37,516 bases of DNA from Nitrososphaerota archaeon (GTDB lineage Archaea; Thermoproteota; Nitrososphaeria; Nitrososphaerales; Gagatemarchaeaceae). A model generated the notes under the pieces. It was not told where the DNA came from. It did not search any database and saw only the letters and a list, made by a program, of their open reading frames with translations. Below, in pieces: positions 3,746-37,516 of the stretch (position 1 is its first letter; every line of letters starts with the position of its first letter). Where the stretch lies: contig JACQFN010000025.1 of assembly GCA_016200045.1 (NCBI GenBank), positions 1 through 37,516 on the forward strand. Direction: 5' to 3'. The translations under genes and the position numbers were made by a program.

Positions 3746-3759
3746 TCGGAACCCTTTTC

Positions 3760-5335: not shown

Positions 5336-5448
5336 TTCTCTTACTTAGGAGGAGCCAGTTTCTTAACCTTCTATGCACGGTTTGCACTGTTCAGGGTGTC
5401 AGGTATCACGCGTCGCCGCGAGCCAGTCAAATGGATTTCACATGAAAT

Positions 5449-5494
5449 AGATAAAAAGCTTATGTATTTGCTTACCCCCTCGGAAAGAGGGGTA
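5449..5494 (+). promoter_or_regulatory. Promoter region with an inverted repeat before the exported-protein operon
   Basis: A/T-rich TATA-like sequences (ATAAAAA at 5451-5457 and CTTATGTAT at 5459-5467) are followed by an imperfect inverted repeat at 5473-5494: TACCCC pairs with GGGGTA, an inner TC/GA extends the stem, and one C is bulged. The right arm contains the likely ribosome-binding sequence GAGGGG, 4-5 bases before ATG 5497. It overlaps the expected transcription start, so it could be a DNA operator or an RNA hairpin. Confidence 0.4.
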
Positions 5495-5496
5495 GT

Positions 5497-6985: not shown

Positions 6986-7148
6986 TTCGGTCTCATGTCG
7001 GACGCCAACAATACGATTTGGCCGGCGGACGCAAATCCTGCTGGGCGTCCCCTTTTCTGCAGAGATAAAACACCCGTCAGTGGCTTCCTTCCAATCGGCG
7101 GTTGGACCGCCCGGTCAGGGACCGGGTAGCCCTCGCGGACTGGAAGCG

Positions 7149-7156: not shown

Positions 7157-7197
7157 AGAAGTGAGGCGGCTGACGACGATTGCAAAGAGGAAGGCGG

Positions 7198-22705: not shown

Positions 22706-22706
22706 C

Positions 22707-22817
22707 CTACTTCGAGAGAACGACCTTCGGCTTCTTCGCCACTGGGACCGCAGGGAGCCTCGCAGACCCCTTCTCCTCCAGCAAAGCCCACGTGTAGATT
22801 CGGAAAGTAGATGTCAC
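22707..22817 (-). CDS. Small 36-residue frame ahead of the ligase (gene or remnant)
   Basis: From GTG 22817 to TAG 22707-22709, one base before the ligase ATG. It encodes a helix-like YTWALLEEKG and a basic tail ending AKKPKVVLSK. The codons are GC-rich like the ligase, and the tail looks like a genuine C-terminus. It lies exactly where the sequence changes to the lower-GC island, so it may be the truncated end of a larger gene rather than a small complete gene. Confidence 0.35.
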   Translation of the reverse strand: MTSTFRIYTWALLEEKGSARLPAVPVAKKPKVVLSK

Positions 22818-22985
22818 CAAACTATGAACGAATTCGGAGATTTGATGTCCTCAGACTATCCTAACCCTCAAGAACCAACGACATTATACGCCTACTAAGT
22901 GTCCCCATCGAAAAACGAACGCAACCCGAAGACCATGATTAAAGACTGAAAGGGTTATGGTGGAGGATTCTCGACGGAATGTGCA

Positions 22986-23324
22986 ATGGAAGAGTGGAAA
23001 TGGGGCGACATAACTGAACGAGAAGCGCTTGACCAGATTATAGAGATCATGAAAGAGAAATGCAAGTCAAGGCCTGAGGATTTCGTCATACCCGATGACA
23101 TCGAGGGACCGTTGAGAAGCTTCGTGAAACGAAAGAACCCAGACTTTGACGACAAGCATGTCGAGAGAATTACATCGAACATTCGAGGATGGCTGGGCTC
23201 GAGATACACAATGCTTTCAAGAGTCTCATCAGATTATGTGAATGTCGAGACACTGACGAGCTTCATCAGAGACTTCGAACGGAGCAAGACCAAACCCTAT
23301 GGGTACCGTAGAAAGAAGTCCTAA
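22986..23324 (+). CDS. Hypothetical small protein at the island edge
   Basis: A 112-residue soluble protein with acidic and helical regions (EEWKWGDITEREALDQIIEI) and a very basic C-terminus (KTKPYGYRRKKS). A GGTGGAGG ribosome-binding sequence stands about 20 bases before the ATG. No motif was recognised. It is the first gene of the lower-GC accessory island. Confidence 0.45.
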   Translation: MEEWKWGDITEREALDQIIEIMKEKCKSRPEDFVIPDDIEGPLRSFVKRKNPDFDDKHVERITSNIRGWLGSRYTMLSRVSSDYVNVETLTSFIRDFERSKTKPYGYRRKKS

Positions 23325-23678
23325 TGCACAACATACTTCGTTGACCAAAGAATAATAGTCTACAGGCGGTTGACGGGTTGTGCCAGATTCCAAGAGGGGG
23401 AGTTCGGCAAACAGCGGGGTTGTCATGAGAGAAACTCAAGAACGTAAGCACAAACCCCGACGAGATTCTCGAATGTCCACGTTGCCATTCGAAAGTACCT
23501 GGTCCGCTACGAAAAGAGGCATCTTCGAAAAGTACACGGAATACGACTCTAGACGCCCTCTGGTTTCCTTAGGACGGGGCAGGTAGCTAGTCTAGCAAGA
23601 ATCCAGACCAACGACTCAACCTGTAGGGGAATCCAAAGTGGAACTTACGCATACTCTTCGCTCTGAAAACAGACACCG
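23325..23678. other. Gene-poor stretch
   Basis: About 350 bases. A 68-codon plus-strand frame at 23380-23586 is open but very Ser/Arg-rich without a motif, so it is not called. No repeat or promoter stands out. Confidence 0.35.
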
Positions 23679-24473
23679 TCACTTTTGAAGCAAAAGCCGC
23701 ATGGCGGGCAGCACCTTCTCATTCACGTACTGCTTGCCTGCTTCCAGCGTACGTACTCGCTCTCCTTCCCACTCGGGCTCTGACTTCCAATTAAGCCAGA
23801 AGAATTCTCGTTTGGGATACATTTCAGCGAACTTCAACCCTTTCGACGAATGAGAGAAATTGACTCGGTAGGGTAGAAGTGTAATCCTCACCTTCGAGGG
23901 GTCAAGTTCCTCAATCATCTTGATTGTCTCCTTCCATGCCTTTCGAACCTCTTCATTCTTGATTCGTGCCTCGAGTCCTTCAAGGCTGGCAGGTTTCTCT
24001 TCGATTTCCTGCTTACGAGGCAGCTCCAGGTCAAGGAGTTGCACGTGTTTCGACCCGCCTATCTCGTAACACAATGCAATTTGCTTTAGCGTTACCTGAA
24101 TCTCCTCAGATACATACTTGACCACTTTCTTCGTCCTCTCATCAAAACTCTTCGCAATGAGAATGATTCTAGGTGGTTTGTCCTCTATCTCAACGTTCGA
24201 ATACGCCCTGAAGAAACTAAGACCTCGTTCCAGAAGATAATCATAGTATTCCAGCGCCTGAAGGAGTTGGCTGTTATCCTCGCCCAACTTGAGCTCAACG
24301 ACCGTCAGGGTTCCTTCGGAATCAACGCCATCAAGGTCAAGTCTCTTGCCATATGGTTTTGTCCGCCTCTGGCTCTTCAGGATGCGGAAACCATCCTCAA
24401 TTGATGAAGGACTACCAGTGAGAATCGCTTCCAGCTCCGCCTCTGACTCGATATCGCACACTCTGAATGCCAC
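23679..24473 (-). CDS. NucS/EndoMS-like PD-(D/E)XK endonuclease
   Basis: A 264-residue protein. The N-terminal ~130 residues match the nuclease domain of NucS/EndoMS-type enzymes: E26 in SSIEDGFRIL, D46 in GKRLDLDGVD, and E60-x-K62 in TVVELKLGE, followed by QALEYYDYLLERG. This gives the complete Glu-Asp-Glu-Lys active site. The N-terminal DNA-binding domain of true EndoMS is absent, and the C-terminal half (about 140-264) is different and may bind substrate. This suggests a defence or repair nuclease rather than mismatch EndoMS. GTG 24473 follows a TATA-like box (minus-strand CTTATATC, 24499-24506) by 26-33 bases, so the message is probably leaderless. Confidence 0.75.
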   Translation of the reverse strand: MAFRVCDIESEAELEAILTGSPSSIEDGFRILKSQRRTKPYGKRLDLDGVDSEGTLTVVELKLGEDNSQLLQALEYYDYLLERGLSFFRAYSNVEIEDKPPRIILIAKSFDERTKKVVKYVSEEIQVTLKQIALCYEIGGSKHVQLLDLELPRKQEIEEKPASLEGLEARIKNEEVRKAWKETIKMIEELDPSKVRITLLPYRVNFSHSSKGLKFAEMYPKREFFWLNWKSEPEWEGERVRTLEAGKQYVNEKVLPAMRLLLQK

Positions 24474-24561
24474 GAGGGCTACTTTCGTTTGACTTGGAGA
24501 TATAAGGTCGCTCTAAGAGTGACTGGCGGTCAATAAGAATCGACGAACCTGGTAGTCCTAC

Positions 24562-24597
24562 GGGCCCATGGTCTAGGTGCATATCCTTTGGGGATAT
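24562..24597 (+). other. tRNA-like 5' fragment followed by a small hairpin
   Basis: GGGCCCATGGTCTAG at 24562-24576 closely resembles the acceptor strand plus D-arm beginning of many archaeal tRNAs (GGGCCC, a two-base linker, GTCTAG). After this the match stops: ATATCC (24581-24586) and GGATAT (24592-24597) form a 6-bp hairpin, and no T-arm or matching 3' acceptor strand was found nearby. It could be a decayed tRNA or an attachment-site scar. The surrounding 24474-24697 holds no gene. Confidence 0.25.
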
Positions 24598-24697
24598 GGT
24601 ATGGGAATCAATGTCAGTCGTCTTTCTGTCCGGCAAGATTGCTTGGGCAGGAAAAGGGCCGGGGCGTTACGGGGGGGCTCCCCGATGCCGCTGTTAG

Positions 24698-24985
24698 TCA
24701 GTTGTTCGAAGTCAACCTATACCTGAGGAGTTCTTCGTAGACGTGGCTCCGATGTTCGATTGCCCATAGCTCAATCTCCGCAGGATTGTCTACAAACTTG
24801 TAAACTACCCTAAAGTCTCCCGCATGGATAGAATAGAGGTCTTTCAAAGCCGGGTCTTTGAGAGGATAGCCTAGGCGAGGATCTTGGCAAATCTGTTCGA
24901 TTACCTTGCCTACTTCTCTCTTGACCGAGTCTTGGAGCTTACGATAGCGTTGCTCACATCTCTTCGTAAAGAAGACCTTGTACAC
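24698..24985 (-). CDS. RelE/ParE-family toxin
   Basis: A 95-residue toxin. YKVFFTKRCEQRYRKLQDSV and KEVGKVIEQI-like helices are followed by YPLKDPALKDLYSIHAGDFR-VVYKF, the RelE fold's beta-strand arginines, and a C-terminal AIEHRSHVYEEL. Members cut ribosome-bound mRNA (RelE) or inhibit gyrase (ParE). GTG 24985 is chosen because it overlaps the antitoxin stop by one base (TAGTG), giving translational coupling; TTG 25012 would add nine residues. Encoded second, after its probable antitoxin. Confidence 0.8.
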   Translation of the reverse strand: MYKVFFTKRCEQRYRKLQDSVKREVGKVIEQICQDPRLGYPLKDPALKDLYSIHAGDFRVVYKFVDNPAEIELWAIEHRSHVYEELLRYRLTSNN

Positions 24986-25689
24986 TATCGATTGGTCTCG
25001 ACCTTCTCCCAAGGGACCAAGCGTTTTGCTTTCGAGTCTTCCCTGCTGCCGTCAATCTCTTGAAGTAACGCCGCGTCATTGAGAATCGTATTCTCCTCGA
25101 CTTCCGCCAGGTCTATCCCTTTGACTTTCAAGATTCCAGAGAACTCTTGTGTTGAGAGCGACGCAATGGTAGCTGCCTTCACCAAGGAGACCTTTCCCTT
25201 GCGGAAAAGGTTAATTGCGATTTCTAGTCTTCTCGAGTCAACCGCTGCGACCATCTCAGATTTAATGGCACTGTCGGGGTACTCGGTATACACCAGGCCG
25301 AGCAGCTCAAGGTATGATAGGTCGTTAAGCAGGGTTTTCACGTTGCTGACGACTTGACGCTCCCGTGCGTCAGCAGATATCCAAGTCGCTTCCGCCATTT
25401 TTCTTCCTTCGAGCGAAAGCTTAATCGCTCCGTCTACCATTTCCGTGAAACCAGATATGAAAAATTGATCTTGAATCTCCTCGACCACTTCACTGTAACT
25501 TCCCATGATGTAGGGTGCGTAGTCTGCGCTCTCGCCAAGCTCGGGAACGTGTTTGGAGACTACGAAGAGTTCTTTCTGGCACCAAGTTCTTCCAGGTAAG
25601 GGTTGAGCTAACTTCCCCCTTGCGTCTGGGGCGTACAGGAGCATCAAGTAGTACTTCTCGAGCGGTTCCAGCTCTTTTGGAGAGAACAT
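24985..25689 (-). CDS. Composite antitoxin: winged-helix-like domain plus UPF0175 domain
   Basis: A 234-residue protein. Residues about 5-95 (YYLMLLYAPDARG, GRTWCQKELFVVSKHVPELG, YAPYIMGSYSEVVEEI, LSLEGRKMAEA) form a winged-helix-like module seen in archaeal proteins of type II toxin-antitoxin loci. Residues about 150-200 (RRLEIAINLFRKGKVSLVKA, then ATIASLSTQEFSGILKVKGID) match the UPF0175 (COG2886) antitoxin helix-turn-helix. UPF0175 antitoxins are normally about 80-100 residues alone, so this is a longer, fused form. Stop and toxin start overlap by one base. It likely neutralises the RelE protein and represses its own promoter, which may lie at the shared box 25717-25723. Confidence 0.75.
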   Translation of the reverse strand: MFSPKELEPLEKYYLMLLYAPDARGKLAQPLPGRTWCQKELFVVSKHVPELGESADYAPYIMGSYSEVVEEIQDQFFISGFTEMVDGAIKLSLEGRKMAEATWISADARERQVVSNVKTLLNDLSYLELLGLVYTEYPDSAIKSEMVAAVDSRRLEIAINLFRKGKVSLVKAATIASLSTQEFSGILKVKGIDLAEVEENTILNDAALLQEIDGSREDSKAKRLVPWEKVETNR

Positions 25690-25716
25690 ATGAAAGTCTC
25701 AGCCTAACCGCATACG

Positions 25717-25723
25717 CTTAAAT
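25717..25723. promoter_or_regulatory. Shared TATA-like box
   Basis: CTTAAAT (plus) / ATTTAAG (minus) lies 21-27 bases before the plus start at 25744 and 28-34 bases before the minus start at 25689. It can serve both divergent genes with leaderless transcripts. Confidence 0.45.
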
Positions 25724-25743
25724 GCTCACTTCAGCTTCTTTAT

Positions 25744-26916
25744 TTGTGTTTGCCAGGCATCGGTGTAACTATTCGGGCTGAGGACCCCGAATTTCGGTCC
25801 CGAGCGGTTAATGTGAAGGTCAAAGGTAAGGAAGTTGTGACACCTATCAGGTCACTGTGTCTTATTCAGTCCAAGGCGTCTGAAGCCAGAGTTCTCAATT
25901 CGAATGACGGTGTCGTGACCATGATAGAGCTTCCCAGAGAGGTCACGAAGACCAAATTAGAGGAGATGGACGGTGACACCGAAAAGCAGGAAGAGTTCTT
26001 CCGCCAGATTCGATATCGATTCACAGACCGTCACTTGAACGAGGAAATCACAGTCTTCGCTTTAACGTACAACAATCGGCCTTCTCTCGAAGCTAAGAAC
26101 AGATCACCCACCCCAGCCGAGACAGAACTCTTGTGCTCGATTCTAGACCATCCGTATAATGACATCTGGGTGCCTCCCGTGGTCCCCAAGATATCAGGCC
26201 AAGATTACCTGCCATACCTGAAGAGTTTCTATGAACAAGCAAAGACATACTCGAACGTCGCCTCCGCAGGACTGATTCCTCACATAGCGAGGCTTGAACT
26301 CAGGCTCCTAGCAGATTTCTACATCAAAGAGGGAATCAACTACTTTGTCATGGACTTCGACGGAAAGAATCCACTAGACTTGATTGCGAACATCAGCGAA
26401 GTGAACAAGATGATCAGGCACATAGAAAAGGAGTACGGGACGCCGTGTTTTCTACATGCACTGAATGTACCCTTTACGAAATCTCACTGGAAGAATCTCG
26501 TGATTCCTGCGAAGGATATTGTTCTGTTCGAAATGGGGTTCAACTGTTTTGGTTCCTCGCACATCAGACGTCAGCTTCCCAAGGAGTTCTTGGAGAAGAT
26601 TAGTTTGCTGCCTCATCCCCACTATAGGGTTTTCAACAGAAGAGATTACGGGTATTACCGAGACGATGCCCCCGGCCTAAAAGACATGGTGGTCGAGGAA
26701 GGCAAGATGTTCATGTCGCTCGATGAGTTCACAGAGGGTCTTACGTGGACAGAAGTCAAGACGCTTGAGAAATTGTTCAATGTCGAACGGCACTGTCTCG
26801 AGGCCACAGAAATACGCCGAAACCTACTGACTGGACAGAGCCTCATGCAGTATATCAAGGGAAAAGCACTTCTGCCCCCGAAATTTGTTCGCCAAGCCTT
26901 GAGAATGGCCAGATAG
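25744..26916 (+). CDS. Predicted alpha/beta-barrel protein, possibly related to tRNA/DNA-guanine transglycosylases
   Basis: A 390-residue cytoplasmic protein of no confidently recognised family. The first 40 residues (RSRAVNVKVKGKEVVTPIRS) resemble the start of tRNA-guanine transglycosylases, where a strand reading GK.(V/I).TP opens the barrel. Later strand-helix units (YFVMDFDGKNPLDL, PCFLHALNVPF, KDIVLFEMGFNCFGSSH) suit a TIM barrel. The family's zinc site (CxCxxC...H) is not seen. A link to DpdA-type DNA transglycosylases is therefore only a suggestion; an unrelated barrel is possible. It begins at TTG 25744 (TTG 25750 alternative), divergent from the toxin-antitoxin pair, in an island of DNA enzymes. 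Confidence 0.45.
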   Translation: MCLPGIGVTIRAEDPEFRSRAVNVKVKGKEVVTPIRSLCLIQSKASEARVLNSNDGVVTMIELPREVTKTKLEEMDGDTEKQEEFFRQIRYRFTDRHLNEEITVFALTYNNRPSLEAKNRSPTPAETELLCSILDHPYNDIWVPPVVPKISGQDYLPYLKSFYEQAKTYSNVASAGLIPHIARLELRLLADFYIKEGINYFVMDFDGKNPLDLIANISEVNKMIRHIEKEYGTPCFLHALNVPFTKSHWKNLVIPAKDIVLFEMGFNCFGSSHIRRQLPKEFLEKISLLPHPHYRVFNRRDYGYYRDDAPGLKDMVVEEGKMFMSLDEFTEGLTWTEVKTLEKLFNVERHCLEATEIRRNLLTGQSLMQYIKGKALLPPKFVRQALRMAR

Positions 26917-26993
26917 TGGGTCAGTCCCATTCTTAGGTCACAATCAGAATTTTTCAATTCTGCATGAGTAGCGGTGGTCCTGGCGACCGGGAC

Positions 26994-28388
26994 TTATTCC
27001 ATGCTCAGCTGCGGCATCTCGATTGGTTTGTCGACTAAAGAACTGAACATGTCAGCATGTTGCGTATGAATTGGGATGATCTTGCCAGAATTGCTCTCTC
27101 CCATGATTCTGGCTAGGTCGGCCTGAGGAGCATGCCCTGAGGCATGAAAGTGATGGTATCCCATCCGAAAGTGGTCCAGCCACGCCTTCAGTCTCTTCAT
27201 GTCGAATTCCTGCTCTTCATTGATGACCTCCGACGCAGACTTGATGTAGATACTGCCCTCGGTTGGTTTTAAGTCTATCAGCTCCGTAACATCATAGTAG
27301 CCCATTGCCGCAATTATCTCATTCTGATGAGCAGATACGTAGTCAGGCCGGACTGTGTTTTGTCTATTCAAGAACTCTCTCTCCCACCAATAATAGTCTC
27401 TATCAGAGAACGTTCCCGATCCTCGTTTCTCTTCGTAGAGAATCATGCTTTCGTCATCGAGACTTGGAAGGCTTGGAATCAACGTCTTCAACTTCCTAAT
27501 GTAGTATGCATCCTTGAATGCAATCAGTAATCTTCTGCCGGAGTTCTTGGCCAATTCGAGAAATGTCATGAAGCGGGTCGTGTCCTTAAAGGCGAAATCG
27601 GCCATAACTAGACCTCTGGCCTTGGTTATTTCCTGGCCACTCCCGTCTCTGACGTATTGTTCGTTATTCCGGTCTGTCTCATCAATCCTAGTCCCTTCAC
27701 ACAGGAAAATGTCTGGCTTTGCTTGCTTGAGCCTCTCCAGGAATTGCTCGGTGAGGTAACCTTCGGTACCATGCATTCGAAGGTCCCCACTGTAGGCAAT
27801 CGTCTGATCCGAGCCATGAATTAGAAGTGCAGAAGCGCCGGGAACACTATGGTCGACAGGGATCATCTCGATTTCAAGCCCACCTATCTTAAACCTCCCT
27901 TCGACTATCCTGAACTCCCTGGGAATAGGCTTGTCCTTGTAATTCAGAAGAGGCCTTCGTTTGTAGTTAATTATCTCATACTCTAGCCTCCTCGGCGCCG
28001 TCTCGTGAATTGCTTGGAGAATGGAGTGTGTAATCGCATTACAATAGACGGGAATCCTTTCGTCTAGAAAGGAAACATGCGCTGCGTGGTCTAGGTGGGC
28101 GTGAGAAAGTATCACAGCATCTACTTCGACATCTTCGTGCTTTTCCAGCCCGGCAAACTCAAGCAAATCCCTTCTGTAGATACCCTTGATTTTCGGAAGT
28201 AAACCAATCTCAATGAAGTCTGTTATTCCATTTGCGGTGCGTGGCTGAATGAACTCTTCGAAGTATTGTGCATGGACAGCGAAGTTCATCCCGAAATCTA
28301 AGAATATCCGGGCGTCTGCCTTCCTGTCTGTTACTAGGATCTTATTTCCTCCAATCTGATTGACCCCGCCGTAGAATCTGAGGTCCAT
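26994..28388 (-). CDS. Metallo-beta-lactamase-fold nuclease, RNase J-like
   Basis: A 464-residue enzyme. The N-terminus FYGGVNQIGGNKILV and the metal-binding HAHLDH (His96, His98, Asp100, His101) are followed by MIPVDHSVPGA (metal His), AYSGDLRMHG (metal Asp) and, near the end, HASGHAPQADLARIM...IIPIHTQHADMF. This last part is the RMMBL motif of RNase J/CPSF-like beta-CASP nucleases. The central region (about 215-390) occupies the beta-CASP place. The family degrades RNA from the 5' end or cuts RNA/DNA. It is encoded among defence-type genes rather than with translation genes. SD-like GAGGTG precedes the ATG. It is divergent from the resolvase-like pair. Confidence 0.75.
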   Translation of the reverse strand: MDLRFYGGVNQIGGNKILVTDRKADARIFLDFGMNFAVHAQYFEEFIQPRTANGITDFIEIGLLPKIKGIYRRDLLEFAGLEKHEDVEVDAVILSHAHLDHAAHVSFLDERIPVYCNAITHSILQAIHETAPRRLEYEIINYKRRPLLNYKDKPIPREFRIVEGRFKIGGLEIEMIPVDHSVPGASALLIHGSDQTIAYSGDLRMHGTEGYLTEQFLERLKQAKPDIFLCEGTRIDETDRNNEQYVRDGSGQEITKARGLVMADFAFKDTTRFMTFLELAKNSGRRLLIAFKDAYYIRKLKTLIPSLPSLDDESMILYEEKRGSGTFSDRDYYWWEREFLNRQNTVRPDYVSAHQNEIIAAMGYYDVTELIDLKPTEGSIYIKSASEVINEEQEFDMKRLKAWLDHFRMGYHHFHASGHAPQADLARIMGESNSGKIIPIHTQHADMFSSLVDKPIEMPQLSME

Positions 28389-28402
28389 CCAGGCACCTCA
28401 AC

Positions 28403-28410
28403 TATAAATA
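28403..28410 (+). promoter_or_regulatory. TATA box before the resolvase-like gene pair
   Basis: TATAAATA lies 34-41 bases upstream of TTG 28444, predicting a transcript start near 28434 and a short leader. The same 55-base gap also carries the promoter of the divergent MBL gene (minus-strand CTTAATTC near 28413-28420). Confidence 0.5.
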
Positions 28411-28443
28411 TCGAATTAAGGCTTCCATGGTTGGCGAGTTTCC

Positions 28444-28944
28444 TTGGGCAAACCGATTCCGAAGGAAATTCATTCGGTTCTCGGTCAGTTGGCTTCCGAC
28501 AAGAGAATACTCGGCGAATGTCCAACATGTAACGAAAGCCACCCACTATCAGACTGGAGTCTATTCTACAAGGATGATTTCCCCGCAGGCAGTAAGGAGC
28601 TAATCGATGCGATACTCGCCAGGCCAGCAGATGCCAAAGTCGAATATGACAAACTCAGGAAGAAGTTCACGACTCTGGCTGCTCAGCGATCAATAGTGGT
28701 AAATGTCGGTAAGATTGTCGAAGAGATTGCTCCTAGTCTTTCGACTTTCCCCTACAAAGGGGCAGATTGCAGGAGCTTGCTAGACCCTATCGATTACGTT
28801 GTTTTCGAAGGGCTGTCCGAACAGAATAAGGTGACCAACATACATTTCCTAGACGTGAAGACTGGAGCTAGCAAGTTGAATGACCACCAAAAACAGGTGA
28901 AAGATGCGATTGAGAAACAGCATGTCGAATTCGAATTTTATTGA
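28444..28944 (+). CDS. Holliday junction resolvase-like endonuclease (Endonuc_Holl family), active-site intact
   Basis: A 166-residue protein. C26-P-T-C29 near the N-terminus is half of a possible zinc knuckle. The C-terminal part is the nuclease core: IVEEIAPSL, YKGADCRSLLDPIDYVVFEG with Asp117, and IHFLDVKTG with Asp137-x-Lys139. Together these make the PD-(D/E)XK set of the family annotated as endonucleases distantly related to archaeal Holliday junction resolvases. The coiled region between is short. TTG 28444 is the start. The stop is three bases before the next, paralogous gene. Cleavage of branched or foreign DNA is plausible but not shown. Confidence 0.65.
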   Translation: MGKPIPKEIHSVLGQLASDKRILGECPTCNESHPLSDWSLFYKDDFPAGSKELIDAILARPADAKVEYDKLRKKFTTLAAQRSIVVNVGKIVEEIAPSLSTFPYKGADCRSLLDPIDYVVFEGLSEQNKVTNIHFLDVKTGASKLNDHQKQVKDAIEKQHVEFEFY

Positions 28945-28947
28945 GGA

Positions 28948-29472
28948 ATGAGATTGGAGACCTCATTCGACGTCTTCTTCAAGGAGCAAAGGCACATATT
29001 CGGAGTGTGCCCAAACCCTGAATGTAGAGAGGTCTCTCGTCTTGCTGACATCAGGGTATCCTACCGGGCCAAGTACGTCCAGGACTGGTTAGACCGAGTC
29101 GAAGACCAGATGGCCAGTTGGGAGGACAAGCAAGAGGGATTGGAAGAGAAGCAGAAAGAACTGAAAGCGAAGTACATCGAAAAGGCTCGGAAAACGGTTC
29201 TTCCGCAGAAGTTGCGAACAATCTCTTCGCTATTCCAGAAACGTCTGGTGCAGCCTGAGGATATCAAAGTGGTTTCGCACCCCTTGGACTTCATAGCGTT
29301 CGACGGCCTCATCACGAATGAAGACCTTCAGAGGGTCGTCCTTTTGGATAGCGAAAGTAGTAAGAAATTCAGAAGTGGAATCCAGAATAGCATAAGGACG
29401 ACCGTAGAAAATGGGAAGTACGACTGGCACATAGCTAGAGTGGATGAGGAAGGCAAGGTAACCTTGGAGTAA
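28948..29472 (+). CDS. Paralogous resolvase-like protein with degenerate active site
   Basis: A 174-residue protein with the same plan as its upstream neighbour: a CPNPEC (C21, C26) cysteine pair, a longer coiled coil (about 45-85, DKQEGLEEKQKELKAKYIEK), and a core reading SHPLDFIAFDG with Asp114. Where the neighbour has DVKTG this one has DSES (Asp134, Glu136), so the catalytic Lys is lost. It is probably a non-catalytic partner that could heterodimerise with the active paralog. It starts 3 bases after the neighbour's stop, so the two are co-translated. Confidence 0.6.
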   Translation: MRLETSFDVFFKEQRHIFGVCPNPECREVSRLADIRVSYRAKYVQDWLDRVEDQMASWEDKQEGLEEKQKELKAKYIEKARKTVLPQKLRTISSLFQKRLVQPEDIKVVSHPLDFIAFDGLITNEDLQRVVLLDSESSKKFRSGIQNSIRTTVENGKYDWHIARVDEEGKVTLE

Positions 29473-29488
29473 GGAAGGGGGTTTTTCA

Positions 29489-29504
29489 GCACAATGAATT
29501 GTGC
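29489..29504. repeat. Perfect palindrome in an otherwise gene-free gap
   Basis: GCACAAT-GA-ATTGTGC is a 7-bp perfect inverted repeat with a 2-base centre, 17 bases after the resolvase-like pair. With a T-run (GTTTTT, 29481-29486) just before it, it may act as a terminator on the minus strand or as a protein-binding site. The gap 29473-29693 contains an open plus frame (ATG 29538 to 29753) with GC-rich codons but no motif, which runs into the 3' end of the methylase gene; it may be a remnant and is not called. Confidence 0.35.
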
Positions 29505-29693
29505 GGTAGTCCCTGCGCCCGCATCCTCGCTGTAGTCATGGAGATTCCCTGTCCGGCCCGCTCCAAGGACGAGCTGACGTCAAACCACTTCAAGCAGGTA
29601 GAGCCGTATAGGCCATCAGAAGGCCATGCCTCGGTAGTTGCCCCGAAGTGCTTCTATGACCCTATGAGTTCCAAATCCATTCTTGTTAGGCTC

Positions 29694-32600
29694 TTACATA
29701 TTTTCAACCGAACTCTCCCCCTCGTTCTGAGTGCTGGTTCCCATTGTCTTTGACAGAGTGTCAATGGCGGAATAAGCTCCCTTCTGGAAGAGGGTGACCA
29801 TTCGGTGGCGTTCTTCTTGGTTTGAGATTCCAAGTATCTTCAACAGCCCATCGTCTAGTTCTTTCCTGAAACTGCTTGGGTTGGCTAGTTGTTCGACGAG
29901 TGAAGGTACCTCGATCTTGCTCACCTTCTTCCAGAGGTTCTCGATTGCTTCGTTGTCCTCTTTGCTGAGGTTGGAAACATCTGGTACTGGGCATTTGTCC
30001 ATCGCATATTCCTCAAGGTCCATGTACGTTCCTCTGGTGATTCGTGCCCGTCCTAGGTACGAGAGAATGAATGGCGACGAATTGAACCACATGCAAAGCA
30101 GTTTTTCTTGAACCGGATGTGATATTCCAGTGAAATACTTTCCCTTAATGACCACGAAGGCAGGTTTCTCGTGGCGAACACAGATGAGGGTGGTTCCTTT
30201 TGCGGCCCAGTCCACACGCCACATCATTGACAACCTAGAAGAACCACGCAATACCAATTCGTCCCACTCAGACCGGAGCTTTCTCAGGGTCCTATTGCCT
30301 ACTTCCCTGCCGTAGTAGGATAAGACTAGACCGGCAATCTCAGGTGTAATCTTGGTTACGCAGTAATCTGAATAGCCAGTTACGTCAAGTGACTTCAGAT
30401 ACGAAAATCGTCTTATCGCTGGAACCGTTATTGAAGTTGGTATTTCATATTTGGACCCAGAGATTCGATCTTGTGCTGTAACTTTCTTGGAGTCGATATG
30501 GTCGACAAACAACCTGTCAGTCTTTTGACGAAGTGACCTTTCTTTGGTGTTGGATATGACAAGCGCCTTTGGCCCATAACTGGAAAAGTTTCTTCCACTG
30601 AAGACGCACTCAGTTGCTTCGATTCCTGCTTTTGAGGTTAGTTCACCGAAGCCGATGAGAGGGATTGCTGATTTCTTGACAAGTTCTCCGAGCTCAGCAT
30701 TGCCTAGAGCGTAATCTTCGAGGAGACTCAGATATAGTCCTGACAATGTACGGTTGTCAGGTGACAAGTCTTCTTGAGCAAAAGTGCGGCGAATTGAAAA
30801 GCTGTCTTCGCCATCTACCCGGTGCTCGATTTGACCTACCAGTTTGCCTACTTTTTCTTCTGTCCAGCCATCAGGTGGTAATCGAGTTCCAACAATCATG
30901 AATTCATGGCTTGGGACTGGAGTCTCCTTCTTAGCGACCAGTAGACATTCGGTCAGGCTTGTATCTTCGCTGTATGCAGGCCTCCCTAGACCTACAAAAA
31001 TCGCTTCTACCGAATACTGACTCAGAAAATAGTGTATGAATGGATGAAATGACTTTGCTGTGAATGTAGTCAGCGGTAGAACTGCACCAATCCGTCCGCC
31101 GGATTTCAGAAAGGTGTCCGCTAGAAAGAGAAAGAATAGCTGTTGGCTCGGTTTGAAAAAGATTAGAGGCTTGTACTTTGGCCTTCGTGAGAATCTATCG
31201 CTTAACGCATCCCTGTACTTGGGGTCCATGTTATCCCAAGAAGTAAATGGTGGATTCATCATGACAATGTCTACCGCGCTCACGACGAATTGTTTTGCCT
31301 CAGACCGACCCATTCTTACCGTTCTTGTTCTTCTTGGAATCTCTAGGTTCTCGAAATCCGTCTCCAAGGTAGTCTGCTGAAATTCGGAGGGCAAGGCTTC
31401 GCCGGTAGTCGGCACGATCGAGCCAGGGCGAAGAAGGGTGGAGTCAATCGTGCCTATTCTGACGTGTTCTGTTTCCATAAGGGGTTGCTGGATGGCGAGA
31501 TTCACTGCAGCTAGATGTCCGGAAAACGCCATTGCGTCGATTCCGGTGATTTGTTCTTCGACAAATCTCCGGTGAAGTTCGAATTGATTTCCCCGAGCGA
31601 GCGCCAATTTGCGCTTGTAGGACGCAACCAAGAGTGTTCCGCTTCCGCATGCTGGATCCATCACCAAGTCGTCAGCGTCAAGGACGGTACAACCAGCGAG
31701 TAATGCAGCTGCATTCGGGTTTGTAAAGTGTGCACCGAGGGGTTTCCGGATTTCGAGAGGTATCAAGGTTTGGAATACCTGCCCCGCCAGGTCAATCGAC
31801 TTCAGCTTGGGTGACAGGGACATTGTAGCAGTGACAACATCCCTGCAAGCCAGCCTTGACTTTTGACCTTTGAATAGCTGTGAGACCTTTATTCCGTAAA
31901 TAGGCTCGTAGTCTTGCTCTCGCACTTTGTCGAAGTATGTCTGTAATTTTTCAGGCGATCCTGCGTCCACAAGATTGAGACTCGGATACCTTCCGTCGCC
32001 TCTTTTTTGAGATTCACGGGAAAGCAGTGAGTAGAATAGGATTTGGTTGATGAAGAGAAAGGCAGCACCTAGTCTCAGGATTCTAGGCCTTTGTTCCTTG
32101 CGAATTCGAGTCGCTAGCACGGACCTGAAGAAATGATGTCCGCCAAATTCCTTCTCAAGTTCCTGCTGTGGTACGCCTCTCAGAGTGTCTCCCAGGTTTA
32201 GTGCTCCTGCTCTCAAGAGTCTCTTTGCTTCGACTTGCGTCGGTTCCGCCCTTTTCTGAACTTCGTCGAATTCGCCTCGCAGGGCCTTCGAAATGTCCGT
32301 GACCAATTCTTCGAAGGAGTCCAGCATTCTTGGAATCTCGTCATGGAGAGTTGTCCGAGCAAGTATGTGCAGGATGAATTTGCTTTCGCCCTTTCCGGGG
32401 TAGACTACTGCGAAAACTTCGCCCAATTCCTTCCCCGTCAATTCTTCTGTAAGGGCGATTTGCTGGGAATACTCTTGAGCAGTGACTAATGCAGCAATTT
32501 CTTGCCTGAATCCGAGTTTGGCGCTCCCGATGTGTATTGTTCCGTCATAGACGGCGATGTCTGGTTTCTTAATCCTTGGATTGCCGCCTACCGTTAGGTG

Positions 32601-32702
32601 GAATACAGGGCTTGGACCTTCAGCGTTGAACCCTTTCTCGCGCAAGGCAGCAGCAAGGCGTCCCGTCCAAGGGTCTTCAGGTCGGGCGTGTGCACCTGAC
32701 AA
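29694..32702 (-). CDS. DNA N6-adenine methyltransferase with nuclease-like N-terminus (type I/IIG-like)
   Basis: A 1002-residue protein. Residues about 330-490 hold the methyltransferase: GAHFTNPNAAALLAG, motif I DPACGSGTLL (349-358), and motif IV MMNPPF (481-486), the N/D-P-P-Y/F of N6-adenine enzymes. The N-terminal ~65 residues look like a PD-(D/E)XK module (KKPDIAVYDGTIHIGSAKLG, Asp48 and Lys62), but Ser replaces the usual Glu before x-Lys, so cleavage may be lost or the site unusual. Residues about 600-1000 are probably the target-recognition and helical region. No separate restriction or specificity subunit is next to it. It starts at TTG 32702, with a TATA-like box (32740-32747) about 38-45 bases upstream. 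Confidence 0.85.
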   Translation of the reverse strand: MSGAHARPEDPWTGRLAAALREKGFNAEGPSPVFHLTVGGNPRIKKPDIAVYDGTIHIGSAKLGFRQEIAALVTAQEYSQQIALTEELTGKELGEVFAVVYPGKGESKFILHILARTTLHDEIPRMLDSFEELVTDISKALRGEFDEVQKRAEPTQVEAKRLLRAGALNLGDTLRGVPQQELEKEFGGHHFFRSVLATRIRKEQRPRILRLGAAFLFINQILFYSLLSRESQKRGDGRYPSLNLVDAGSPEKLQTYFDKVREQDYEPIYGIKVSQLFKGQKSRLACRDVVTATMSLSPKLKSIDLAGQVFQTLIPLEIRKPLGAHFTNPNAAALLAGCTVLDADDLVMDPACGSGTLLVASYKRKLALARGNQFELHRRFVEEQITGIDAMAFSGHLAAVNLAIQQPLMETEHVRIGTIDSTLLRPGSIVPTTGEALPSEFQQTTLETDFENLEIPRRTRTVRMGRSEAKQFVVSAVDIVMMNPPFTSWDNMDPKYRDALSDRFSRRPKYKPLIFFKPSQQLFFLFLADTFLKSGGRIGAVLPLTTFTAKSFHPFIHYFLSQYSVEAIFVGLGRPAYSEDTSLTECLLVAKKETPVPSHEFMIVGTRLPPDGWTEEKVGKLVGQIEHRVDGEDSFSIRRTFAQEDLSPDNRTLSGLYLSLLEDYALGNAELGELVKKSAIPLIGFGELTSKAGIEATECVFSGRNFSSYGPKALVISNTKERSLRQKTDRLFVDHIDSKKVTAQDRISGSKYEIPTSITVPAIRRFSYLKSLDVTGYSDYCVTKITPEIAGLVLSYYGREVGNRTLRKLRSEWDELVLRGSSRLSMMWRVDWAAKGTTLICVRHEKPAFVVIKGKYFTGISHPVQEKLLCMWFNSSPFILSYLGRARITRGTYMDLEEYAMDKCPVPDVSNLSKEDNEAIENLWKKVSKIEVPSLVEQLANPSSFRKELDDGLLKILGISNQEERHRMVTLFQKGAYSAIDTLSKTMGTSTQNEGESSVENM

Positions 32703-32881
32703 TTCTGGATGATGCGCCGTGTTAGACTACCACAGGGAGGATATAAGCTGGCAAACTTGAAACGCACACCTACTTTGCCTTGTTTGACATCGACAAAGAC
32801 TCGATTAGCATTGGGCCGTTCCCGCATTGCGTCACAACTACCCCAATTGAATACTTGTTACTCGTCCTTCTGAGACCTTGT

Positions 32882-33628
32882 CTAAGGATTCAGGACGAAT
32901 CCCTGCCACACCTTGTCAACTAGATCCTTCGCATAGTCTGGTCTCGTAAGCGTATAGTTGTCTCTAGGCTCGAACAGGAAGCTAATCCAGGTCCCAAGCT
33001 CGTCTCTGAAGTGCCGGGGAAGAAGTCTGCTTACCCTAAGGCCGTCATGTCTAATGTCAGGGAACATTACGAAGGTGACAGAGTTCACCTGCCTGCTCTT
33101 TCGCAGCAACGAAAGCAGGTATGCTCTGCCTACTGCGGATTCAAACTCTGCCGACCAGGTCAGCTCGATAACATGAGAATGCTTGCCAAGCTTGACCAAG
33201 TAATCGACGGCGACCTCACCGAGGGAAGTTTCAAACTTCACACCTCGCTCGGCCTCCGCATTGTTTCCTCTCGCCTTTGCAAAGAGGCTTTGGGTCAGAT
33301 TACTCTTAAGGATGTCCATTGCTACGAGCCCCAGCCTGGGCGCCCTGAAACCAGATCCACGAATTGATTCTAGTGCTTCATTCAATGTTGCCCTGTTCCT
33401 AGGCGAGTAGAATCTCGTGACACCCCTCTTGTCGCTTTGTAGTATTCCGTCCCGCTCAAGGTTGTGGAGACCGTTGGTTACCGTCTGAATTGCCGATTTC
33501 AGACTCTGAGCGGCAGCGCTCGCTTTGAGTTCTTGGATACCCTCGGTGCTGAATAGCATACAGAGTCTAAGGCCAAGCGTGTGCGACTGGAGGTATTCGA
33601 CATAGCTCTGAGCGCTTCTTGGGAGCAT
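32882..33628 (-). CDS. Winged-helix protein with degenerate restriction-nuclease-like C-domain
   Basis: A 248-residue protein. The N-terminal ~80 residues are a winged helix (GLRLCMLFSTEGIQELKASA, AIQTVTNGLHNLERDGIL, GVTRFYSP). The C-terminal part has strand patterns like PD-(D/E)XK nucleases: VAVDYLVKLGKHSHVIELTW with Asp and Glu in place, but Thr where Lys is needed, then AYLLSLLRKS. It is probably an inactive nuclease fold used as a sensor, or an undetected variant. ATG 33628 with CTTATATC (33656-33663) 28-35 bases upstream fits a leaderless transcript. Divergent from hicA; likely a local regulator of the island. Confidence 0.55.
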   Translation of the reverse strand: MLPRSAQSYVEYLQSHTLGLRLCMLFSTEGIQELKASAAAQSLKSAIQTVTNGLHNLERDGILQSDKRGVTRFYSPRNRATLNEALESIRGSGFRAPRLGLVAMDILKSNLTQSLFAKARGNNAEAERGVKFETSLGEVAVDYLVKLGKHSHVIELTWSAEFESAVGRAYLLSLLRKSRQVNSVTFVMFPDIRHDGLRVSRLLPRHFRDELGTWISFLFEPRDNYTLTRPDYAKDLVDKVWQGFVLNP

Positions 33629-33655
33629 TTCCGGCTGTACACTACCAAGGGAAGG

Positions 33656-33678
33656 CTTATATCATAATACTATTAGTA
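33656..33678. promoter_or_regulatory. Divergent promoter with inverted repeat
   Basis: CTTATATC (33656-33663) serves the minus-strand winged-helix gene. TACTA-T-TAGTA (33668-33678) is an 11-base perfect inverted repeat in the A/T-rich gap, within the likely promoter of hicA (start TTG 33707). It is a candidate operator for the winged-helix protein or a HicA-linked regulator. Confidence 0.4.
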
Positions 33679-33706
33679 ATACCGATAGGTAATAACAGGC
33701 GAGAAT

Positions 33707-33928
33707 TTGAAGTATCGTCCTCTTAAGGGAAAGGAAATTTGTAAGGCCCTCCAGAGAAGGTTGGGGTATCGTGTCAGGGCTACGCAGGGAAGCCATGTTC
33801 AACTGGTCGATGAAGACAATCATCAGGTAACCGTGCCAGTGCATGGCGAGGTCAGCCCTCGGACTCTGCTCTCAATCTCCTTTCAAGCCGGGATGACGAA
33901 AGACGACTTTCTGAGGTTATTCGAATGA
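33707..33928 (+). CDS. hicA: HicA-family mRNA interferase toxin (solo)
   Basis: A 73-residue protein matching HicA/YcfA: KGKEICKALQRRLGY, RVRATQGSHVQLVDEDNHQV with the catalytic His in GSHV, TVPVHGEVSPRTLLSIS, and AGMTKDDFLRL. HicA is a double-stranded-RNA-binding-fold ribonuclease that cleaves mRNA. Normally a HicB antitoxin gene follows directly; here none is found on either side before tnsAB, so it is an orphan, or the divergent winged-helix protein substitutes for HicB. The start is TTG 33707. Confidence 0.8.
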   Translation: MKYRPLKGKEICKALQRRLGYRVRATQGSHVQLVDEDNHQVTVPVHGEVSPRTLLSISFQAGMTKDDFLRLFE

Positions 33929-34058
33929 TTGACGGAACCACGCCACCCCACCTCCCCAGGAGGGGTAAAGGGGGTAAAGTATGGCTGCGACTTGAATCGG
34001 TTCTACCTGGACGTACACTCATCCGGTCGCAGCGTAACCCCCAGGCGAGTGGAGCTTC
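33929..34058. repeat. Repeat-bearing gap before tnsAB, candidate transposon-end region
   Basis: This 130-base gap holds a tandem direct repeat GGGGTAAAG at 33962-33970 and 33971-33979, and an inverted repeat GCTGCGAC (33984-33991) / GTCGCAGC (34026-34033) spaced by 34 bases. Just upstream is a small CCTCC-CCA-GGAGG stem. In Tn7 the end carrying several TnsB-binding sites lies immediately before tnsA, so this or the 33629-33706 gap is where the end is expected. A terminal TGT and multiple ~20-bp sites were not convincingly found by eye. Confidence 0.35.
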
Positions 34059-36668
34059 ATGGATATAGTAGACCCAGGCGATAAGGAGGTCGGTGAGACC
34101 GCGGGCGTCAGAAGAGTACGACCGAACAGGATAAGCTGCACTGGCTACTACGTCTCTCGGCATGGCTACAGCATCCCTTACGAGTCTGTTCTGGAGAGGG
34201 ACTTCTTCCTGCTTTGCGATTTCGAACCGCAAATTACGAAGATAACGGCACAACCCTTCAGGATTGGGAAACATACGCCCGATGCCTGCCTTGAGACAAT
34301 GGACGGCAAGCGTATCGTTGTCGATGTGAAGCCGGAAGCGATCCTCATCAGGAAGTGGTCCAAGTACGCTGCTGCGTTCGCATCTACTGCAGAGTACTGC
34401 GAAGGGCAGGGATACTCCTATGCCTTCTTCACAGACGCTCTCAGGACTGATCAAAGACACCGGCTGGCTGTTCTGAAGGAGATACACTACAACGCCCAGT
34501 GCGAGGACAGTCCTGCCCTGGAGGTATCACTCCAATCGGATCTTGAGAACAGAGGTCCAACCACCGTCATGACTCTCTTGGAGAACCTGGATTCGAAGAT
34601 GGACCCGGCCGTGGCAAAGAGGGCCTTATCCAAGCTGATATTCGGCATGTCAGCTGTTGTCCTCGACACCCCCAAGCCCTTTCTAGAGGACGCAGTGGTG
34701 TCTGCAGAGAGAGACGGCGCTAAGGCTCAGAGCATCATCATTCCATATTCTAGGGTGCTCAAACGACTTGAAACCCATCCACTCCGATTCCTTGGAGATT
34801 CGGCCGTCAACTATTACGAGAGAATGCATGAGTTGACGCTCGCAGGCCACCATTATGAGGTCTTGGATAGTTCGGCACCTGAAGATATACTTGTGAGCAG
34901 CAGCGAGAATGGAGAGCGATATCGAGTATGTCTTGACAAGATTCCAGCGGCAGGCGGGAAGCTCAGCACCTTAGCCTTGGAACGACCTGAACTCTTCGAC
35001 CGAATAATGCAGAGGTGGGACGGAATACGAGGCCTAGTAAGCCTCCCCAGAAGAACGAAAGAAGACTTTCGGAAGGTCGCAGGAACACTCGGATTGAGCC
35101 CAAGACAAGTCCGAAGGCTCATCAGGCGGGTCGAGTCCTACGGCCCCGAGGGCCTAGCTCCCTTGGAAGGAAAGGGTGGCAAAGGGGGAATCAGAATCGA
35201 GCGGGATGTCGACGAAATTGTTCGCCGGGTCATTGAGGAGGAATACCTAACCACTAGAAAACCGACTGTGGCACAAATATACAAAGATATTCAATTGAGG
35301 ATAGCTGACGCAAACAGACTCAGACACTCGAATGAGGAGCTCAAGGTTCCTCACATGGACACCATTTACCGAAGAGTGCATGCGATACATCCGCAGACAA
35401 AGGCCGAGAAGCGTGAAGGAATCAAATTCACAAGCGACAGGTTCGGGGTTTACGGAGGGAGATTTCCAGATTCAACCCGCCCACTTCAAACGGTACTAAT
35501 CGATCACACCCCCTTGGACGTCAGGGTTGTGGAGAGCACCACGGGAAGGCCAATTTCGAGGGTCTGGATTACCGCCCTGATAGACGCTTACAGTCGAATG
35601 GTCGGAGGTTTCATGCTGAACCTTACACAACCGAATGCCAACGACGTGGGCCTGGTCATCCTGCAGTGCGCACTATCGAAAGACAACGAGGTCAGGCAGC
35701 ATGAACTCATGGAATGGCCGATCCAGGGGGTCCCCTGGCAACTGCATTTTGACAATGGGAAGGACTTCCGATCCAGGTCGATTGCGGCCGGTTGCGCCGA
35801 GTTCGGCATTAACATAATGCACCGTCCCGTTGGCACCCCACGCTTCGGGGGGTACATCGAGAGATTCTATCGAACTCTTGAACAGGGTTACATCCATGAT
35901 TTTCCAGGGACAACCAAGTCAGATCCAGACGAGCGGGGGATATACGATTCTGACAAGGAAGCTCGTCTTACAATCGACAAATTGGAAGCTCTAGTTTGGA
36001 AGAGCATCGACGAGTACCACATTACCCCGCACAGTGAACTCGGAATGACTCCCCTGCAGAAGTGGAAGGAAGGGGTCAGGTCACACCCGCCAAGGCAACT
36101 CTCTCAGGATCAGACTGAGAGATTCCGCATGGCCTTTCTTCCGATGGAAGAGCGAACAATTCAGAAGGATGGCATTCATTTCGGGGGGTGTGAATATTAT
36201 TCTCCGGACCTCATTTCTCTTTTGTCCACGGGACTTGGAAAGGGTAACGAGAAACGCAAAATCAGACACGACCCGCTCGATGTCCGCTACATCTATGTCT
36301 TCGACAAGAAAGAGTTCAGGTATCACCGCCTGACTTGCGGCGTTCACGAGCGAATCTCCAGGCGAGAATTTCTAAAGGCACGAAAGGAGCGCAGGACGAA
36401 AGCAGGATTTGACCCTTCCGAGGCGAATGTTGTCTCTCAGTACAGGAAACGGGTCGCCGAACTAGAGAAGGACGATCATGTCCAGAGCAAACGAACGCTC
36501 AAGGAGAGGGAGATAATCCGACGAGAGAATTCGAAGGCGGAACGCTTTGCAAAGACAAAGGCCACCACACAGAAGGAAGAGCCGAAGCCGTCTGCTCTGT
36601 CCTACAAACCCAGCTCGATGGAACTCTCTGGAAAGGTCCGCATCAAGAATGACGGGAGGACTGGGTGA
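34059..36668 (+). CDS. tnsAB: TnsA-TnsB fusion transposase of a Tn7-like element
   Basis: An 869-residue protein joining two normally separate Tn7 subunits. Residues 1-150 are the TnsA endonuclease: SVLERDF (Glu46), HTPDACL (Asp75) and VVDVKPE (Lys91), the restriction-like active site that cuts 5' ends. About 150-260 is probably the TnsA C-terminal part. About 325-400 contains helix-turn-helix DNA-binding segments (LGLSPRQVRRLIRRVESYGP). About 470-680 is the RNase H-like transposase with Asp482 (LIDHTP), Asp565 (HFDNGKDF) and Glu601 (GGYIERFYRTLE), a D-D-35-E set. About 700-770 is the Mu-type C-terminal barrel (YYSPDLISLL, RHDPLDVRYIYVFD), followed by a charged tail likely to touch TnsC. The stop overlaps tnsC by one base. 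Confidence 0.9.
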   Translation: MDIVDPGDKEVGETAGVRRVRPNRISCTGYYVSRHGYSIPYESVLERDFFLLCDFEPQITKITAQPFRIGKHTPDACLETMDGKRIVVDVKPEAILIRKWSKYAAAFASTAEYCEGQGYSYAFFTDALRTDQRHRLAVLKEIHYNAQCEDSPALEVSLQSDLENRGPTTVMTLLENLDSKMDPAVAKRALSKLIFGMSAVVLDTPKPFLEDAVVSAERDGAKAQSIIIPYSRVLKRLETHPLRFLGDSAVNYYERMHELTLAGHHYEVLDSSAPEDILVSSSENGERYRVCLDKIPAAGGKLSTLALERPELFDRIMQRWDGIRGLVSLPRRTKEDFRKVAGTLGLSPRQVRRLIRRVESYGPEGLAPLEGKGGKGGIRIERDVDEIVRRVIEEEYLTTRKPTVAQIYKDIQLRIADANRLRHSNEELKVPHMDTIYRRVHAIHPQTKAEKREGIKFTSDRFGVYGGRFPDSTRPLQTVLIDHTPLDVRVVESTTGRPISRVWITALIDAYSRMVGGFMLNLTQPNANDVGLVILQCALSKDNEVRQHELMEWPIQGVPWQLHFDNGKDFRSRSIAAGCAEFGINIMHRPVGTPRFGGYIERFYRTLEQGYIHDFPGTTKSDPDERGIYDSDKEARLTIDKLEALVWKSIDEYHITPHSELGMTPLQKWKEGVRSHPPRQLSQDQTERFRMAFLPMEERTIQKDGIHFGGCEYYSPDLISLLSTGLGKGNEKRKIRHDPLDVRYIYVFDKKEFRYHRLTCGVHERISRREFLKARKERRTKAGFDPSEANVVSQYRKRVAELEKDDHVQSKRTLKEREIIRRENSKAERFAKTKATTQKEEPKPSALSYKPSSMELSGKVRIKNDGRTG

Positions 36669-37516
36669 TGACCAGAGATATGTATCCCCACCTGCTCCCA
36701 GATGTCGTCGAGACACTGAACTGGACGGTCGACAGGAGGATGGAATTCAACAAGAGAGATTGCTTTGTGAGATACCCGGCGGCCGACGAAGTTCTGAGGA
36801 AGCTTGAGGACCTCCGCACCGGGCCGAGAAGGCTGCGACCCCAGAATCTTCTACTGTATGGTTCAGGCGGTAACGGGAAGACAGCGGTCCTTGACGAGTT
36901 CGTTGATATCAGGAAAGATCTGATTCTCACAAGCGAAGCGGGAAATGGCAAAACCGCTCTTGTTCAGGAGTTCGGTGCCCATCACCCCGAAAGAAGTACG
37001 CCAGATATGGAAATCAAGCCGGTGATTAGGACCGAAGTAGTTTCCCCGGGAGAAAGCCGACTCCTTTCTGCAATCCTACAGAGCTTGGGTTACGAAGACT
37101 GGGACAGGGGGAGCAACGATAGCAAGTTCAAGAGGGTTCTGAACGGCCTGGACAAGTGCCGTGTTGAAGTCTTGGCCATCGACGAGTTCCACAACATGCT
37201 GCAGGGTGGAAAGAGAGAGTATGAGTCGCTTCGAGTTATCAAGACCATCTCAAACAAACTCGGGCTTCCAATCGTCCTCAGTGGGACCGAACTCGCTCTC
37301 AGAGTCCTCAGGGATGACCCGCAGCTCCTTACTCGCTTCGACGTTGTCAAGCTTCCACTTTGGGAGGCGAATCAAAATTACATCGACTTCCTCTATTACT
37401 TCGAGTCCACACTATCATTGGCTGAGGCCAGCCACCTTTACAGGGAAGAGAAGGCACAACCAATCCTCGAGCTCTCAAGAAGCCTGAATCCAGAGGGACG
37501 TCAAGGAGTCCTCGCC
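36668..37516 (+). CDS. tnsC: TnsC/TniB AAA+ transposition ATPase (C-terminus outside window)
   Basis: 283 residues are visible, the rest lies beyond the edge. The ATG overlaps the tnsAB stop (TGATG). The sequence matches TniB/TnsC: LRPQNLLLYG-SGGNGKT (Walker A, Lys71), a second SEAGNGKT (Lys95), Walker B VEVLAIDEFHN (Asp172-Glu173), then LPIVLSGTELAL (sensor-like) and RFDVVKLPLW. TnsC polymerises on target DNA and licenses TnsAB to insert. Two complete Walker A motifs 24 residues apart are abnormal for the family (see the repeat entry). A targeting gene (TnsD/TniQ) is expected downstream, outside the window. Confidence 0.85.
   Translation, partial: MTRDMYPHLLPDVVETLNWTVDRRMEFNKRDCFVRYPAADEVLRKLEDLRTGPRRLRPQNLLLYGSGGNGKTAVLDEFVDIRKDLILTSEAGNGKTALVQEFGAHHPERSTPDMEIKPVIRTEVVSPGESRLLSAILQSLGYEDWDRGSNDSKFKRVLNGLDKCRVEVLAIDEFHNMLQGGKREYESLRVIKTISNKLGLPIVLSGTELALRVLRDDPQLLTRFDVVKLPLWEANQNYIDFLYYFESTLSLAEASHLYREEKAQPILELSRSLNPEGRQGVLA
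36848..36991 (+). repeat. Tandem 24-codon duplication carrying two Walker A motifs inside tnsC
   Basis: Codons 36848-36919 (LLLYGSGGNGKTAVLDEF and six more) and 36920-36991 (LILTSEAGNGKTALVQEF and six more) align without gaps, with 10 of 24 residues identical including the whole GNGKT-A core and E-F. The DNA copies have diverged much more, so the duplication is not recent. The first copy continues the upstream family context (RPQN), the second continues the downstream context (HHPE). Confidence 0.6.

Follow-up and report, generated by a model that had tools for sequence, protein, structure and literature searches.

Does a gene for a fused TnsA-TnsB protein at the end of a contig assigned to an archaeon belong to a Tn7-like transposon, and does that transposon truly reside in an archaeal chromosome? 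A survey that delimited 6,549 Tn7-like elements reported no homologues of Tn7-like transposases in archaeal genomes (Benler 2021, PMC8649781). An earlier reading made from the DNA alone (the sequence-only reading) had remarked that archaeal Tn7-like transposons are rarely described. The survey of Faure 2023 spanned 1.6 million genomes of bacteria and archaea, and the part of that paper available to us reports no archaeal Tn7-like element (PMC10293859). No archaeal case appeared in the other literature searched, a scope that mostly excluded subscription journals. The window, the whole stretch of 37,516 nucleotides analysed here, is the entire contig C7 of a 1.54-Mb MAG (25 contigs, 96.9% complete, 2.55% contamination). 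We are highly confident that a complete Tn7-like cut-and-paste transposon, its cut-and-paste activity being inferred, has inserted itself near the end of a host gene in a Nitrososphaerales archaeon, within the 3' end of ku. The element comprises window positions 22793 to 37516 and positions 1 to 1948 of a second contig of the same MAG, C19 (258 kb), which together give 16,672 known bp (∼16.7 kb) plus a gap in tnsC. It holds intact tnsAB and tniQ genes, a tnsC gene in two pieces, and TGT...ACA ends.

The transposition proteins

The tnsAB gene (34059 to 36668, + strand) is an intact open reading frame. The sequence-only reading had seen in its single 869-residue product both the TnsA nuclease residues (Glu46, Asp75, and Lys91) and a TnsB DD(35)E transposase (Asp482, Asp565, and Glu601), and domain matches and alignments agree. 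Residues 20 to 126 match the NCBIfam TnsA family with an E value of 5e-16; the match to the Pfam domain Tn7_TnsA-like_N (residues 68 to 126, E value of 1.5e-4) falls under Pfam's curated cutoff, and the TnsA assignment is backed by the alignment as well. Indeed, E46, D75 (within TPD), and D89-V-K91 line up with the E...TPD...(E)VK columns when 14 homologues of TnsA are aligned. The C-terminal part contains a DDE core and a Mu-transpos_C domain (E value of 9.5e-12). The residues D482, D565, and E601 do not vary across the TnsB alignment, and 35 residues separate D565 from E601. Structure prediction used an alignment without three rows from the plasmid collection. The AlphaFold model of the fusion protein consists of a TnsA module, a disordered linker (∼190 to 251), and a TnsB module. 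Its best fold match in the PDB, aligned over the full length, is a chain of the TnsABCD-DNA transpososome. Two criteria for a Tn7-like element, a TnsA endonuclease with catalytic E/D/K residues and a TnsB DDE transposase with a Mu C-terminal domain, are thus met.

The tnsC gene (36665 to 37516, + strand) encodes a TniB-type AAA+ protein (TnsC/TniB E value of 1e-47) and is cut at its 3' end by the end of the contig. A one-base overlap with tnsAB had been claimed for it. This stands if translation starts at the ATG at 36668 (TGATG) and fails if it starts at the GTG at 36665, where the overlap is 4 bases. The assignment of TnsAB and TnsC is far above chance. Residues ∼60 to 105 of TnsC (window 36840 to 37000) contain two Walker-A-like motifs ∼30 residues apart, GSGGNGKT and SEAGNGKT, an insertion missing in all homologues aligned. 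The DNA copies of the two motifs differ, so this is not a simple assembly duplication. Because of the unusual second motif and a short C terminus, the activity of the TnsC protein is not certain.

A search of the same genome for TniQ gave a sole match, at the very start of C19. There the tniQ gene (C19:57-1559) is intact and encodes 500 amino acids, and the first 48 positions of the contig (C19:1-48) hold the probable last 15 codons and stop codon of tnsC. We joined C7 and C19 by inference, without reads; the gap, which lies inside the 3' part of tnsC, is unsized and possibly zero. The Tn7-like criterion of a TnsC AAA+ protein is met, with a gene complete only across the two contigs, as is that of a TniQ/TnsD target protein. 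A structure model of TniQ matches TniQ/TnsD structures and has helical segments beyond the TniQ core, its C terminus being modelled at low confidence; BLASTP against Tn7 TnsD gave no significant match. Overlapping tniQ by 4 bases is orf98 (C19:1556-1852), encoding 98 amino acids, for which we found no family and no homologue in bacterial loci. It may be an extra transposition factor.

Element ends and the insertion in ku

The G+C content is 0.498 (C7) and 0.499 (C19) in the two parts of the element versus 0.592 and 0.591 in the host DNA. The ends were located by comparing the regions of these GC breaks as inverted repeats, and 19 of 24 positions matched in inverted orientation, with ∼0.04 such matches expected by chance. 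The left end (22793 to 22851, + strand), which reads TGTAGATTCGG..., TGTAGATTCGGAAAGTAGATGTCAC from window position 22793, contains the terminal TGT and two TnsB-site-like repeats of ∼21 bp, at 22797 to 22817 (GATTCGGAAAGTAGATGTCAC) and 22831 to 22851 (AATTCGGAGATTTGATGTCCT), for which there are no binding data; a weaker third repeat may lie at 22885. The right end (C19:1882-1948, - strand) has its terminus at C19:1948, reads TGTGGACTCGGAGAGTTGCTGTCAC inward, and carries three TnsB-site-like repeats ∼20 to 22 bp apart. The matrix for these sites was partly circular, and a genome-wide consensus search served as a check on it: with three or fewer mismatches allowed, the consensus is found three times across the 1.54-Mb genome, each time at an element end. 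An identical 5-bp sequence, CCACG, flanks both ends (left copy, 22788 to 22792; right copy, C19:1949-1953). Two further Tn7-like criteria are met, namely, TGT/ACA termini with inverted TnsB-site repeat arrays, TnsB binding being inferred, and a 5-bp target-site duplication. A candidate end directly upstream of tnsAB (33.6 to 34.1 kb) was rejected since no repeat array is present there, the true left end lying 11 kb further left.

Outside the left end lies the severed 3' end of the host ku gene (22706 to 22787, - strand), encoding the native tail ALLEEKGSARLPAVPVAKKPKVVLSK up to the stop codon, and directly downstream of ku is an ATP-dependent DNA ligase gene (21872 to 22705, - strand). The body of ku (PF02735, E value of 2.7e-7) lies outside the right end, at C19:1949-2710 on the - strand. 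After ku come the ligase and an open reading frame with a DNA polymerase beta thumb domain. In a closed genome of the same genus, G005, an intact ku, the ligase, and the thumb-domain open reading frame are adjacent and 87, 74, and 78% identical, respectively. With the element in place, a short foreign tail replaces the 26 C-terminal residues of Ku. Removal of the element and one CCACG restores an uninterrupted, in-frame Ku that ends in ...LDDAWALLEEKGSARLPAVPVAKKPKVVLSK and its stop codon right before the ligase start. In ten loci from relatives in the genus and family, the two flanks adjoin as an empty site, and in the closest of these they overlap by 3 to 5 bp at the exact insertion point. 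The paired CCACG, the Ku restored in frame, and the ten empty sites show a real transposition into an archaeal chromosome rather than contamination. The broken ku has not decayed further, from which we infer that the insertion is recent.

The sequence-only reading had placed a Tn7-like TnsAB and TnsC in an apparently archaeal genome and had named a bacterial or chimeric contig as the outcome that would refute it. Such a contig end, bacterial in origin and misjoined or misbinned with the archaeon, could be suspected from the 2.55% contamination of the MAG, from the drop in G+C from 0.59 to 0.50 at the element, and from the bacterial origin of the nearest homologues listed. We regard it as very improbable, since two separate contigs hold host DNA up to the element, share the same target-site duplication, and together rebuild a host gene in frame; moreover, the empty sites of relatives lie at exactly the same point, and homologues of some cargo genes occur elsewhere in the genus. 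The contig is archaeal in origin, from the order Nitrososphaerales, and the placement of the element in a truly archaeal genome is upheld. The host DNA at 7 to 22.79 kb of the window matches many genus members at 65 to 83%. A search for 16S in the MAG itself found none; that of same-genus genomes, used in its place, is archaeal. Archaeal AmoA is present in members of three other families of the order and was not found in the three host-genus genomes tested; by this evidence the host belongs to Nitrososphaerales but not to the ammonia oxidisers.

The remainder of the contig has features of its own. A further low-G+C stretch (0.52) at window positions 1 to 7000, possibly a second island, has three larger open reading frames without a Pfam match. 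A 1,232-residue protein with an LCAT-type acyltransferase/lipase domain, to our knowledge unusual among archaea, is encoded at 7180 to 10878. It is followed by an adenylate cyclase-TPR gene (10961 to 12898) with many similar copies in the same genome and the genus (contigs C12, C19, and C21 among them).

The position of the insertion raises the question of how the target was chosen. Homing Tn7-like elements often insert at the 3' end of conserved genes, and this one lies in the 3' end of ku, immediately after the strongly conserved block LWLLMGxSEGILKLDDAW. The TniQ protein is about the size of TnsD (508 amino acids in Tn7) and has the additional helical segments mentioned above. As a refinement of the main reading, a TnsD-like TniQ might recognise an attachment site in the conserved 3' end of the ku coding sequence and guide insertion there. 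We offer this as a tentative idea that is rather unlikely on present evidence: only one insertion is known, and we found no further element inserted at ku; the coding sequence is interrupted, which is not the case for Tn7 at glmS; and the TniQ C terminus is poorly resolved in the model.

Cargo genes

The region between the left end and tnsAB carries genes that, judged by family matches, make up a cargo rich in restriction/nuclease-like and toxin-antitoxin genes. Two open reading frames on the + strand have no family (22986 to 23324, 112 amino acids; 25744 to 26916, 390 amino acids). Between them, all on the - strand, are genes for a nuclease-like protein (23679 to 24473) with a weak NucS C-terminal match and assigned to the PADLOC candidate family PDC-S11, a ParE-like toxin (24698 to 25012; ParE_toxin E value of 2e-9), and a UPF0175-domain protein (24985 to 25689; E value of 2e-10) that is its probable partner antitoxin. 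A metallo-beta-lactamase/beta-CASP-type protein (26994 to 28388, - strand) has a 62% identical homologue in a genus relative. Two adjacent + strand genes of the Endonuc_Holl family (28444 to 28944 and 28948 to 29472), assigned by family matches, are homologous to a pair in a low-G+C (∼0.50) island of the closed genome G005 (C1:1174000-1187000). They are followed by genes for a type IIG restriction-modification-like N6-adenine methyltransferase of 1,002 amino acids (29694 to 32702, - strand), a 248-residue winged-HTH-like protein with a weak match (32882 to 33628, - strand), and a HicA-like protein (33707 to 33928, + strand; HicA E value of 1.1e-12), beside which no HicB match was found among the open reading frames searched. 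Since part of this cargo has homologues in other members of the genus, we infer that the element has probably exchanged cargo within archaea.

Relationship to known elements and proposed mechanism

No other copy of TnsAB was found in 100 relatives, 400 genomes of the order, or 398 genomes of the phylum, sets that overlap; matches below an E value of 1e-3 among the 100 relatives were short matches to other DDE transposases. Elsewhere in the 398 phylum genomes, TniQ gave one weak match with seven stop codons (G272, C18:122529-122843), which may be due to chance or may be what is left of a second, defunct archaeal element. Single-protein scans of genome contigs and viral contigs found no homologues, which only an alignment query reached. 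The best 80 loci listed in GTDB species genomes are bacterial by title, with at best 37% identity over the best segment; as these are the best loci listed only, absence from archaea beyond this phylum is not implied. Among them are Tn7-like/Tn5053-related elements of Pseudomonadota, Campylobacterota, and others that have the same TnsA-TnsB-TniB-TniQ gene set and order and are the closest sequence relatives among the matches listed, at no more than ∼37 to 40% identity. They differ in that TnsA and TnsB are separate in nearly all. In two elements of Holophagae (Acidobacteriota; L044 and L066), TnsA is fused to the N terminus of TnsB, as in the archaeal protein.

The sequence-only reading had proposed a phylogeny of TnsB and TnsC, and would have been refuted by a place inside a well-described bacterial element with near-identical sequence. 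In a quick tree of 41 TnsB cores, including those of Tn7, I-F3, V-K, and Holophaga, the archaeal protein falls outside a 36-member clade of bacterial homologues (SH-aLRT, 95). It has no firm grouping with Tn7, I-F3, or V-K. By the tree and the low identities, the protein does not lie inside a described bacterial element. The fused Holophaga TnsAB is nested elsewhere, which suggests separate TnsA-TnsB fusions; the archaeal fusion probably arose on its own.

Like Tn7 of E. coli (TnsABCDE), the archaeal element has TnsA, TnsB, TnsC, and a TniQ/TnsD-family protein, TGT/ACA ends with ∼20-bp TnsB-site arrays, and a 5-bp target-site duplication, and it sits close to where a conserved gene ends at its 3' side. 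Its two clear left repeats and three closely spaced right repeats recall the 3+4 TnsB sites of the Tn7 ends (PMC8649781). It differs from Tn7 in having TnsA fused to a very divergent TnsB, in its target (ku rather than glmS), and in its archaeal host. Its transposition genes read toward the nearby right end and the cargo lies upstream of tnsAB, whereas in Tn7 tnsA adjoins the right end. No TnsE-family match was found among the element open reading frames searched, and the element does not meet the criterion for canonical Tn7 (TnsE, a close TnsD, and a glmS site). Nor does it meet that for Tn5053/Tn402 (TniA without TnsA, a resolvase, and res-site targeting): TnsA is present, and no resolvase appears among the family matches of its open reading frames.

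It might also be a CRISPR-associated transposon (CAST) that has lost its cas genes, or in which they escaped notice. Among solved structures the TnsBs of I-F3 CASTs (Tn6677 and PseCAST) score highest against the archaeal sequence (E value of ∼1e-42), and in CAST I-B2 and I-D TnsA is likewise fused to the TnsB N terminus (PMC10293859); these CASTs carry a Cascade. The element open reading frames searched, however, gave no cas match in Pfam, NCBIfam, or PADLOC, no 16-mer is repeated inside the element, and its TnsB stands apart from I-F3 and V-K in the tree. Extension to the right, which had been proposed as a check for TniQ/TnsD, cas genes, or a CRISPR array, led on C19 to tniQ and the right end and to no cas genes or array. 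The CAST criterion of cas effector genes plus a CRISPR array is not met in the open reading frames searched, within the known sequence, and we consider a CAST origin still more improbable than contamination.

This leaves a Tn7-like transposon, and its mode of action can be proposed by analogy. In Tn7 and CAST biochemistry, the two ends are brought together by TnsB, which joins their 3' strands to the target, while cutting of the 5' strands is done by TnsA; TnsC forms a bridge to the target, and TniQ selects it. By extension, the archaeal TnsB would bind the end repeats and cut and join the 3' strands, and the fused TnsA would cut the 5' strands for a clean exit of the element, the fusion fixing a 1:1 nuclease ratio in one chain. 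The AAA+ TnsC would connect the transposase with the target, which the 500-residue TniQ/TnsD-like protein would choose, and the element would take its cargo along as a mobile defence island. The anatomy of the element, the 5-bp target-site duplication, and the clean empty sites are traces such a mechanism would leave; the steps themselves are inferred. Still more doubtful than the homing itself is, taken as a whole, the proposal that this is the first delimited archaeal Tn7-like transposon, that its TnsB belongs to a deep lineage in which a separate TnsA-TnsB fusion arose, that its TniQ homes to a protein-guided attachment site at the 3' end of ku, and that orf98 may be an extra factor.

The ends, the target-site duplication, and the empty sites show that Tn7 machinery functions, or did so until recently, on the archaeal side of the domain border as well. 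For an assay, the element supplies defined ends together with TnsAB, TnsC, and TniQ. It is also a possible genetic tool for Nitrososphaerales and a means by which archaeal defence genes could be moved. If homing to ku proves true, an archaeal repair gene would serve as a protein-guided attachment site.
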